A model generated the notes under the pieces. The model ran no database searches. It was given only the letters and a program-made list of their open reading frames with translations, and was not told the DNA's origin. From a bacterium (GTDB taxonomy: Bacteria > Calditrichota > Calditrichia > RBG-13-44-9 > J042): a stretch of 49,146 bases of DNA. The position numbers and the translations under genes are program-made. Of this stretch, positions 33,469 through 35,839 are shown one piece after another; the stretch's first letter is position 1; the number at the start of each line of letters is the position of its first letter. Location of the stretch: NCBI GenBank assembly GCA_015485355.1, contig WFTQ01000027.1, positions 1-49,146 of the forward strand. The letters run 5' to 3'.

Positions 33469-33984
33469 TCATCCGCCCCGTTCGCGGTCGGGATTCCGGT
33501 TATACGCCTTGCTGCGTCCCGGAGGGATCGACAGATATTCCCATCGTTCACCAGCGAAGTGTTTGGCTAAATACGTAATTTGCCCCACATGATAACTAAA
33601 ATGGGCCAAGGAGCGGGCCAATGCTTCTTCCACCGTAAAAGCAACTCCCCGGATAGTTACCTGTTTATATCGATCTTCCGAAGACAGGGCGGCCATGGTT
33701 TCTTCCCATATTTGCCAGGCTTCCTGCCACTGTTGCATGATCCGAGCCCGGGTTTGTTGAGGAGGGGAAAATTCGTCTTCCCGATTTCGCCAGGGTTTTT
33801 CCCCATCCGAAGTCAAAAACTCCGTAAATCGGGAACGAAAATTCCCCGACAAATGCTGAACAATCACTGCAATGGAATTATCGCTCTTCCCTATCTTTCG
33901 GAAAAAGTCCGGTTCAGATACCTGCCGGACGGCCCCTTCCAGCAGTTTTCGATACCGCAGAAATTCTTCCAAAAACGGAACCAT
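33469..33984 (-). CDS. DUF1572 / DinB-superfamily protein
   Basis: 171 residues from the ATG at 33984, which has GGAGG five bases upstream. The family motif around QHLSGNFRSRFTEFLTSDGEKPWRNR is characteristic of DUF1572. His44 and the HFSYH pair (His-x3-His) form the metal-binding triad of the DinB four-helix bundle. Several DinB-superfamily members are bacillithiol or mycothiol S-transferases or metal-dependent hydrolases. A YpdA-type bacillithiol reductase is encoded less than 1 kb away on the other strand, so a thiol-linked role is possible. The promoter region carries a perfect palindrome. Confidence 0.88.
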   Translation of the reverse strand: MVPFLEEFLRYRKLLEGAVRQVSEPDFFRKIGKSDNSIAVIVQHLSGNFRSRFTEFLTSDGEKPWRNREDEFSPPQQTRARIMQQWQEAWQIWEETMAALSSEDRYKQVTIRGVAFTVEEALARSLAHFSYHVGQITYLAKHFAGERWEYLSIPPGRSKAYNRNPDRERGG

Positions 33985-34330
33985 GGACACCTCCGAAAAT
34001 CATTGGATACGCCTACCACCATCGTGCCATACTTCAGTGAAGTATACGGCATTAGGGTCGGAATAAAAAGGATTATCTAAGAGAAACGTCCTCCCGCCTG
34101 CCTGTACCATAGGCAAGGAAACCCGGATAAGGCTCTCTTTTTATTTTCCGGCGTGTCGGTCAAGAAAGAGATGGTAAATCCTGAAGAACGGTTTTCCATA
34201 GTTCCGGAGGCCGGCGGTTCCACGTTCCGCTCCGGCATGGTGCCTCCGGACGTGCCTCTATGCGAAAAACCTAAAAGCCCAAAAGCGCCTTCCCGCCGGA
34301 CTCCACCCGATCATCCCCAACCATTGGATA
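33985..34330. other. Intergenic region between DUF1572 and the tRNA-Lys unit
   Basis: Next to DUF1572 it holds that gene's promoter with the palindrome at 34029-34045. The remainder to 34330 has a short plus-strand frame (34153-34347) with no ribosome site or recognisable protein features. I see nothing else. Confidence 0.45.
34029..34046 (-). promoter_or_regulatory. Palindromic operator-like site over the DUF1572 -10 element
   Basis: ATACTTCA-G-TGAAGTAT (34029-34045) is a perfect inverted repeat with 8-base arms, flanked by GCC and GGC. On the minus strand it overlaps the best -10 candidate, TATACT (34041-34046), about 60 bases before the DUF1572 start. The layout suits a repressor that blocks the polymerase. 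The core TACTT-N5-AAGTA resembles sites of MarR/HxlR-type regulators; the regulator is not in the window. Confidence 0.5.
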
Positions 34331-34380
34331 AAAAGAAAAGCTCCTGACTCCCGGTTGGGTTACCCGTTCGTCAGGAGCTA
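34331..34380 (-). terminator. Intrinsic terminator of the tRNA-Lys transcript
   Basis: AGCTCCTGAC (34339-34348) pairs with GTCAGGAGCT (34370-34379), ten perfect pairs, around an inner GGGT/ACCC region. On the minus strand it is followed by TTTTCTTTTT. No protein gene lies between it and the tRNA. Confidence 0.75.
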
Positions 34381-34508
34381 ATACTGACAGCGGTGACTCG
34401 CCGATCAGACAAGTTGGGGGAAACTCTCTGACCAGCTCAAGCGCCACCGTCTGCCGCTTTCAGATCGATGGGTGGGGGGAACACCCGATGAGTGATCTGA
34501 AAGCTGAG
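34381..34508 (-). ncRNA. Highly structured transcribed segment downstream of tRNA-Lys (candidate small RNA)
   Basis: Between the tRNA 3' end and the terminator, the minus strand folds into strong elements. Hairpin A (34456-34504) has an 11-pair stem GCTTTCAGATC/GATCTGAAAGC with an inner GGGTG/CACCC. Hairpin B (34401-34435) has a 9-pair stem CTGGTCAGA/TCTGATCGG (two G-U) capped by AGTT/AACT and a C-rich loop. GGTG and CACC can close an outer stem around B. No ORF is present. It could be a stable small RNA released by tRNA 3' processing, or just trailer sequence. I do not recognise a known RNA family. Confidence 0.4.
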
Positions 34509-34581
34509 TGCCCCCGCAGGGACTCGAACCCCGAACCAACGGATTAAGAGTCCGCTGCTCTACCAATTGAGCTACGGAGGC
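34509..34581 (-). tRNA. tRNA-Lys (anticodon CTT)
   Basis: 73 bases forming a full cloverleaf. The acceptor stem is GCCTCCG/CGGGGGC with discriminator A. The D-arm sequence is AGCTCAATTGGTAGAGC, the anticodon loop CTCTTAA with anticodon CTT, and the T arm GGTTCGAGTCC type. The CCA end is not encoded. It stands alone, with no other tRNA nearby, and its transcript appears to continue through about 170 bases of structured sequence to a terminator. Confidence 0.96.
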
Positions 34582-34870
34582 TTATCTTTAAGATCAAAAT
34601 TTAGAATGTTTCAAAAATTATTACAACTGTTTTTTAAAAATAGTATCCCGGTTTTTTCCCCATTGTACCCGATACGCTTATACAAAGGGTTGCTTCCATT
34701 GGTTTTCTGCCGCCTCTTTTTCCCATCGTTTATCCGACGATCCCGATTTTCACGTCCAAGTCCGAACAATCCGGCGATGCACCCCGCCATCCATTTTATT
34801 TTCCCTTGCTTTCACCAAGCAGATCTTCTTTATTCAGAGCGTTTTCATAGAAATGTAACAGGATGGTTCC

Positions 34871-35839
34871 ATGAAACCGTACGACATCATCATCATCGGT
34901 GCCGGTCCCATCGGATTGGCCTGCGGCATCGAGGCCCAGCGTAGGGGGATGACTCATCTTATCCTCGAGAAGGGGTGCTTGGTGAATTCGATTTTTCATT
35001 TCCCCACAAATATGACCTTTTTTTCCACCTCGGAACATCTGGAAATCGGGGGGGTGCCGTTTATCTCCCTGGGGGACAAACCCACCCGCCGGGAGGCCCT
35101 GGAATATTATCGGCGCGTGGTATTGCACTGGCAACTGAATCTGCATACTTATGAATGCGTGCACAATGTGACCGGCAGTTTTCCAGACTTCCAGGTTCAT
35201 ACCAATCGGGCCTTATACCAATGTCGAGCCGTGATTGTAGCCACCGGCTATTATGATCAGCCCAATCGATTGCATGTTCCGGGAGAGGATTTGCCCAAAG
35301 TCAGGCACTATTACGATGAACCCCACCCTTATGCCTTTCAGAAAATCGCCGTCATCGGGGCGGGCAATTCGGCCGTGGATGTGGCTTTGGAGACATACCG
35401 ACGCGGGGCCCAAGTGACCATGATAGTCCGGGAGCCGACGCTGAAATCCTCGATCAAATACTGGGTGAAACCGGATATCGAAAACCGGATTCGGGAAGGT
35501 TGCATCCGGGCTTATTTTAACAGCAAGGTGGTCGAGATACGCGAACGGGACATTCTCATCCAAACACCGGAGGGCATGTTGACTCTGGAAAACGATTTCG
35601 TACTGGCCATGACGGGTTATCACCCCGATTACACGTTTCTGGGAAAGCTGGGAATCGCCTTTACAGAGGATGCCGGTCGGGAGCCGGTCTATTGTCCGCG
35701 AACCATGGAAAGCAACCGAGCGGGGATTTTTCTGGCGGGGGTGGTTTGCGGCGGGATGGAAACCCACAAATGGACCATCGAAAACGCCCGCCATCATGCC
35801 CCTAAAATTTTCGATTATCTGCAAAGCATCCTCCAATAA
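34871..35839 (+). CDS. ypdA: YpdA-family bacillithiol disulfide reductase
   Basis: 322 residues. A two-dinucleotide-fold flavoprotein: FAD motif IIGAGPIGLACG at the N-terminus and NADPH motif VIGAGNSAVDVALE at about 160. It lacks the CxxC of thioredoxin reductases. The LEKGCLVNSI-FP stretch, the central ATGYYDQPN and the C-terminal GMETHKWTIENARHHA match YpdA. YpdA reduces oxidised bacillithiol with NADPH in Firmicutes. Here the position of the Cys14 reported in the Staphylococcus enzyme is Ile14, while Cys18 lies nearby. Start ATG 34871. No bshA, bshB or bshC is in the window. Confidence 0.87.
   Translation: MKPYDIIIIGAGPIGLACGIEAQRRGMTHLILEKGCLVNSIFHFPTNMTFFSTSEHLEIGGVPFISLGDKPTRREALEYYRRVVLHWQLNLHTYECVHNVTGSFPDFQVHTNRALYQCRAVIVATGYYDQPNRLHVPGEDLPKVRHYYDEPHPYAFQKIAVIGAGNSAVDVALETYRRGAQVTMIVREPTLKSSIKYWVKPDIENRIREGCIRAYFNSKVVEIRERDILIQTPEGMLTLENDFVLAMTGYHPDYTFLGKLGIAFTEDAGREPVYCPRTMESNRAGIFLAGVVCGGMETHKWTIENARHHAPKIFDYLQSILQ

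Follow-up and report, generated by a model that had tools for sequence, protein, structure and literature searches.

Does the dense RNA structure that lies directly behind a tRNA-Lys(CTT) gene of a Calditrichota genome represent a functional RNA in its own right, and if so, how may it be made and how may it act? The question was raised by a first-pass annotation of the window, the whole stretch of 49,146 nucleotides of contig WFTQ01000027.1 (GCA_015485355.1), and is answered below from the anatomy of the locus, its homologues and its covariation.

Anatomy of the tRNA-Lys locus

The tRNA-Lys(CTT) gene was found on the minus strand at 34509..34581, where ARAGORN and Rfam RF00005 agreed with the first-pass reading; the ARAGORN call extended one base further, to 34508. 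The gene was found to encode no CCA, and it is proposed to serve as a 5′-processing element for the RNA behind it. It was followed by the presence of a structured small RNA of ~180 nt including its terminator (34330..34508, minus strand), delimited by fold, homologues and covariation, with the predicted 5′ end CUCAGC, which corresponds to an RNase Z site after the discriminator A34509. Hairpin 1 (34456..34504, minus strand) was found to contain an 11-pair lower stem and an inner stem GGGU/ACCC, closed by the loop UUCCCCCC with C6 at 34474-34479, and covariation was found in helices 1-3. Hairpin 2 (34386..34455, minus strand) contained an outer stem, an asymmetric internal loop (GGCG, GCGAGUC), an upper stem and the loop UUUCCCCCA with C5 at 34416-34420, with covariation in helices 4-5. 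The intrinsic terminator (34330..34379, minus strand), recognised from sequence and fold, contained the stem AGCUCCUGAC...GUCAGGAGCU with an internal loop, followed by the presence of UUUUCUUUUU; it was missed by the consensus terminator scanner, probably because the internal loop interrupts its stem. The 11-pair hairpin, the C-loop hairpin within a longer-range stem and the U-tract terminator of the first-pass annotation were thus all present in the fold, and the loop of hairpin 1 was additionally found to be C-rich, so that both hairpins carry C-rich apical loops. The 183 nt behind the tRNA were found to fold at -83.5 kcal/mol against -54.2 ± 4.3 kcal/mol for dinucleotide shuffles (z = -6.8; 0 of 200). 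A DinB-like DUF1572 protein (Pfam PF07609) was found to be encoded downstream of the unit at 33469-33990, likewise on the minus strand.

The conserved upstream region, a presumed promoter containing TTG-N20-TAAATTTTG, was placed at 34582..34640 (minus strand) from the upstream sequences and from a block of identity with the sister genome (G001) that ends at 34640. A sigma-70 consensus was not found upstream of the tRNA-Lys of the window in a promoter scan; the TTG-N20-TAAATTTTG arrangement presumably corresponds to the Bacteroidota-type TTTG / TAnnTTTG arrangement, which it resembles. The elements TAAATTTTG before tRNA-Lys (window 34590-34640) and CTTTGACATGGGGAC before tmRNA were found to recur among relatives, and we take both to resemble Bacteroidota-type -7 promoter elements (TAnnTTTG). 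Positions 34329-34640 of the window were 95.8% identical to the sister genome with sharp edges, whereas the next gene (34880-35832) was 72.6% identical, and the sharp block points to a conserved unit made up of ~58 bp of presumed promoter, the tRNA, the RNA and the terminator. The distance from the end of the tRNA to the start of hairpin 1 was 4 nt in the window and the same junction was found in relatives; any promoter of the RNA's own would therefore have to sit inside the tRNA gene.

Distribution of the small RNA

Homologues of the small RNA were found in 13 of 40 Calditrichota genomes, belonging to four families, with one copy per genome. A nucleotide search among these 40 related genomes, in which G000 is the genome of the window, returned a stretch ~97% identical in the sister species and matches with E values of about 1e-5 or lower in eight more genomes; two further matches (L012 and L011) were judged to be chance matches. 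The copy of G004 was a weak nucleotide match (E = 0.39) and was confirmed by its structure and setting. A first covariance model, built from 11 sequences (homologues from the nucleotide search including the window), detected the RNA in 12 of the order's 16 genomes and, outside the order, in G016, a member of another family, and a second covariance model recovered the same 13 genomes. Weak model matches at L041, L042 and L044 were left out, as they contained neither a tRNA neighbour nor C-loop hairpins. A strict-pattern scan of the whole GTDB collection returned 24 loci, among which convincing model scores were confined to ten loci of the Calditrichota group; this pattern would overlook forms as diverged as those of G016 and G006, and absence elsewhere is thus not proven.

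No RNA was found by the model in the f5 family (Caldithrix-like genomes), in which tRNA-Lys(CTT) was followed by short terminator-like hairpins or by nothing; in f5 and f6 genomes tmRNA was present and the small RNA was not detected. In most homologues the RNA was followed by a comparable hairpin and U-tract of differing sequence, except for G016 and G006. In L034 (G012), L032 (G015) and L033 (G008), one shared asymmetric bulge of hairpin 2 was found to carry extra hairpins of 20-45 nt, and G007 was found to contain an extra hairpin inserted in the loop of hairpin 2; these positions of hairpin 2 therefore tolerate insertions. Near the RNA locus of G016, a sub-threshold match to Acido-Lenti-1 RNA was observed at L043:154-200 (plus strand; 31.0 bits against a cut-off of 37).

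Covariation and conserved segments

In a MAFFT alignment not fitted to the model, two-sided changes that keep the pairing were found in 14 of 31 pairs (27 cells against 8.8 after shuffling; 0 of 500), and pairing fell from 89% to 36-50% when the partner was slid by 1-3 columns. The model-fitted alignment of the 13 sequences contained two-sided compensating changes in 20 of the 31 pairs (49 cells against 12.9 after shuffling; 0 of 500). G-U cells numbered 40 in the small-RNA alignment and A-C cells 4, an excess which places the structure on the strand of the tRNA. The loops UUCCCCCC and UCCCCC were found to be near-invariant across the 13 homologues while the stems around them vary, and the segments GGCG and GCGAGUC in the internal loop of hairpin 2 were nearly invariant as well. 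A kink-turn in this internal loop was rejected because the GA on its 5′ side was not conserved.

A coding sequence was likewise rejected: the first-pass annotation had seen no ORF behind the tRNA, and no reading frame was found to be open in all 13 homologues. An Rfam search of the window locus returned tRNA (RF00005) only, and neither there nor in ten related loci did any family match the small RNA, in keeping with the first-pass view of an RNA of no recognised family. The 6S RNA (RF00013) was found as a separate gene at G000:C22:16987-17168 and gave no match at the tRNA-Lys locus, and the tmRNA model (RF00023) did not match the RNA either, tmRNA being a separate gene that is a neighbour in relatives and lies on contig C38 in the genome of the window. 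The first-pass annotation had named a lack of conservation and of compensatory changes in relatives as the result that would speak against it; both were present. The locus thus almost certainly encodes a structured non-coding RNA under selection, and this RNA is a family previously uncatalogued and missing from Rfam.

Decayed tRNAs and the proposed 5′ processing

In three of the RNA-bearing genomes the tRNA before the RNA was found to be decayed, its D and anticodon arms having disappeared or been replaced. The element of G014 (L003:300-420, plus strand) contained a T-arm and a nearly full acceptor stem, that of G004 (L017:1614-1690, minus strand) a T-arm and ~4 outer acceptor pairs, and that of G006 (L040:1430-1501, plus strand) a T-arm and a full acceptor stem. 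No tRNA was found before the RNA in these three genomes by ARAGORN or by the Rfam tRNA model. The T-arm-like element of G014 was found to be CAGGG-UUCGACU-CCCUG, and the acceptor stem of G006 (GUCUUUG/CAAAGAC) was altered in sequence with its pairing kept. A tRNA-Lys(CTT) was not detected elsewhere in G004, G006 and G014 at a similarity cut-off of 1e-8 in assemblies 94-100% complete, the nearest lysine tRNA matches containing the anticodon TTT, and it has likely been lost from these genomes.

RNase Z and RNase P recognise the acceptor stem and the T-arm. That these parts were kept while those for decoding were lost is most readily explained by a need to process the RNA behind them, which argues that the tRNA moiety may serve as a 5′-processing tag. 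Homologues of RNase Z were found in all 13 RNA-bearing genomes; all scored under the curated threshold of the RNase Z model, and they are probably RNase Z. This enzyme is the most likely cutter because tRNA-Lys(CTT) has no encoded CCA. The first-pass proposal of a small stable RNA made by tRNA 3′ processing gains indirect support from the junction of 4 nt, the shared block beginning 58 bp upstream and the tRNA remnants, and on these sequence grounds co-transcription with the tRNA and processing from it are considered probable.

Neighbourhood and tmRNA

The order tRNA-Lys - RNA - tmRNA was found in most relatives with contigs long enough, being present on one strand in G001, G002, G007, G008 and G016, and the order tRNA remnant - RNA - tmRNA was found on one strand in G014, G004 and G006. 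In G015 the tRNA was cut by a contig edge. The tmRNA of the genome of the window was found on another contig (G000:C38:1969-2357) and was 84% identical to the linked copy of the sister species; its placement apart from the RNA, unlike that of the sister species, is a rearrangement. The RNA was also found without an adjacent tmRNA in G012 and G005, and hence, in these two genomes and in that of the window, it does not depend on a neighbouring tmRNA.

Comparison with known systems

No bacterial family of such a structure was found in the literature searched, and a literature search for work on non-coding RNA in Calditrichota returned none. The closest likeness in the loops was to the 6C RNA (B11, RF01066) of Actinobacteria, which contains two hairpins with C-runs in their loops, here C6 and C5 and nearly invariant in the 13 homologues. 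The C-rich loops of 6C RNA are reported to base-pair with G-tracts of ribosome-binding sites, and 6C RNA to act independently of a chaperone (PMC10470900 and its reference 42); the RNA-bearing Calditrichota genomes are likewise without detectable Hfq. Membership in the 6C family was ruled out by its covariance model, which gave no match at E <= 10 in window 34200-34700 and none at E <= 1 in ten related loci. The Calditrichota RNA differs from 6C RNA in that it adjoins tRNA-Lys and contains the additional asymmetric internal loop GGCG/GCGAGUC, and in that, in contrast to the actinobacterial family, its convincing loci were found in Calditrichota only in the strict-pattern GTDB scan, from which distant forms could escape. 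The two families are likely unrelated, and the likeness, taken as an analogy, would be one of working and not of membership.

The position behind a tRNA has parallels elsewhere. Immediately after tRNA-Val, Nanoarchaeum equitans carries a C/D box RNA whose 5′ end RNase Z has been proposed to generate (PMC3491384); tRNA-snoRNA genes of plants are cited from Kruszka et al. 2003 in the same source. These dicistronic genes resemble the present unit in that a small RNA follows a tRNA too closely to have a promoter of its own, and in that its 5′ end would be expected to arise by RNase Z cleavage. They encode C/D box guides, whereas the Calditrichota RNA is bacterial, carries C-loops and has its own terminator, and its tRNA has lost its body in three species. 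In mascRNA-menRNA (MALAT1), processing of a neighbouring RNA is directed by a tRNA-like element which has ceased to be a tRNA. The decayed tRNA of G014 gave a weak match to this family (RF01684; 24.8 bits, E = 0.47, below the cut-off of 42.5). The similarity is convergent at most, as the metazoan element lies 3′ of a long RNA whereas that of Calditrichota lies 5′ of a small RNA.

Proposed mode of action and alternatives

The best overall explanation, whose chances we place at about even, is that of a trans-acting small RNA released from a tRNA-Lys(CTT)-sRNA precursor, the C-loops of which lower the translation of a set of mRNAs. As inferred from the anatomy, the unit would be transcribed from the promoter upstream of the tRNA to the terminator, and tRNA 3′ processing, most likely by RNase Z, would cut after the discriminator base and leave an RNA with the 5′ end CUCAGC. 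The mature RNA would display the two C-runs in its hairpin loops, and by analogy with 6C RNA these could pair, without Hfq, with stretches rich in G, above all Shine-Dalgarno regions of that kind, and so lower the translation of several mRNAs. Hfq was not detected in the RNA-bearing genomes, and an Hfq-dependent sRNA was rejected on this ground. Antisense action through the C-loops, as borrowed from 6C RNA, falls just short of an even chance. The motif GGGGGAA-N(2-9)-ATG was 3.3-fold over a mirrored control in genomes with the RNA and 2.4-fold in those without it, a comparison in which base composition and ordinary purine-rich Shine-Dalgarno sequences act as confounders, and GGGGGA was found upstream of just 8 of 246 sampled genes of the genome of the window (~350 kb sampled). 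More tentatively, the tRNA may have been captured as a dedicated processing tag, its decoding role being lost in some lineages, with the RNA regulating many mRNAs through its C-run loops in a phylum without Hfq.

Antisense pairing does not account for the internal loop GGCG/GCGAGUC, which points to contact with a protein or to a tertiary interaction. The near-invariance of this loop in 13 genomes, together with the single copy per genome and the frequent presence of tmRNA next after the locus, would also suit a housekeeping ribonucleoprotein RNA whose internal loop and C-loops have a protein or the ribosome as their partner, perhaps in connection with trans-translation, and not a set of mRNAs. 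Such a role is considered rather unlikely: the RNA was kept where tmRNA lies elsewhere (G000, G012 and G005), and the f5 and f6 genomes contain tmRNA without a detectable small RNA.

A precedent for a tRNA precursor whose 3′ trailer is a functional RNA is the 3′ETS of E. coli glyW-cysT-leuZ, which acts as a sponge (PMC8383071). The Calditrichota RNA, being a tRNA 3′ trailer as well, might similarly bind other small RNAs or G-rich transcripts as a decoy; this is improbable, as descriptions of the 3′ETS of leuZ do not include a pair of conserved C-loop hairpins and a terminator.

A cis-acting role, in which a structured leader or attenuator would govern read-through from tRNA-Lys into tmRNA, would fit the five genomes with the same-strand order tRNA-Lys - RNA - tmRNA, and G016 in particular, where no clear terminator was found between the RNA and tmRNA. 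Such a terminator was found in most genomes, and the RNA of the window, with no tmRNA behind it, was ~97% identical to that of the sister species, where tmRNA does follow; conservation of the RNA where tmRNA lies elsewhere weakens cis control of tmRNA, which is regarded as very improbable. That the stretch is a mere tRNA trailer and terminator, functionless and structured by chance, as its position directly behind the tRNA and the short terminator alone in related f5 genomes might suggest, is scarcely credible. This reading is counted as already refuted by the covariation, which like the invariance of the loops extends across genera, and the retention of the RNA after decay of the tRNA also speaks against it.

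Significance

The small RNA adds to the phylum Calditrichota a well-supported RNA family that is absent from Rfam. The lineages with decayed tRNAs catch a tRNA gene in the course of becoming a processing signal, and provide a natural experiment on the requirements of the processing enzymes. If the C-loops of the trans-acting small RNA proposed here do pair with ribosome-binding sites, the family would represent a second origin of chaperone-free translation control of the 6C type.
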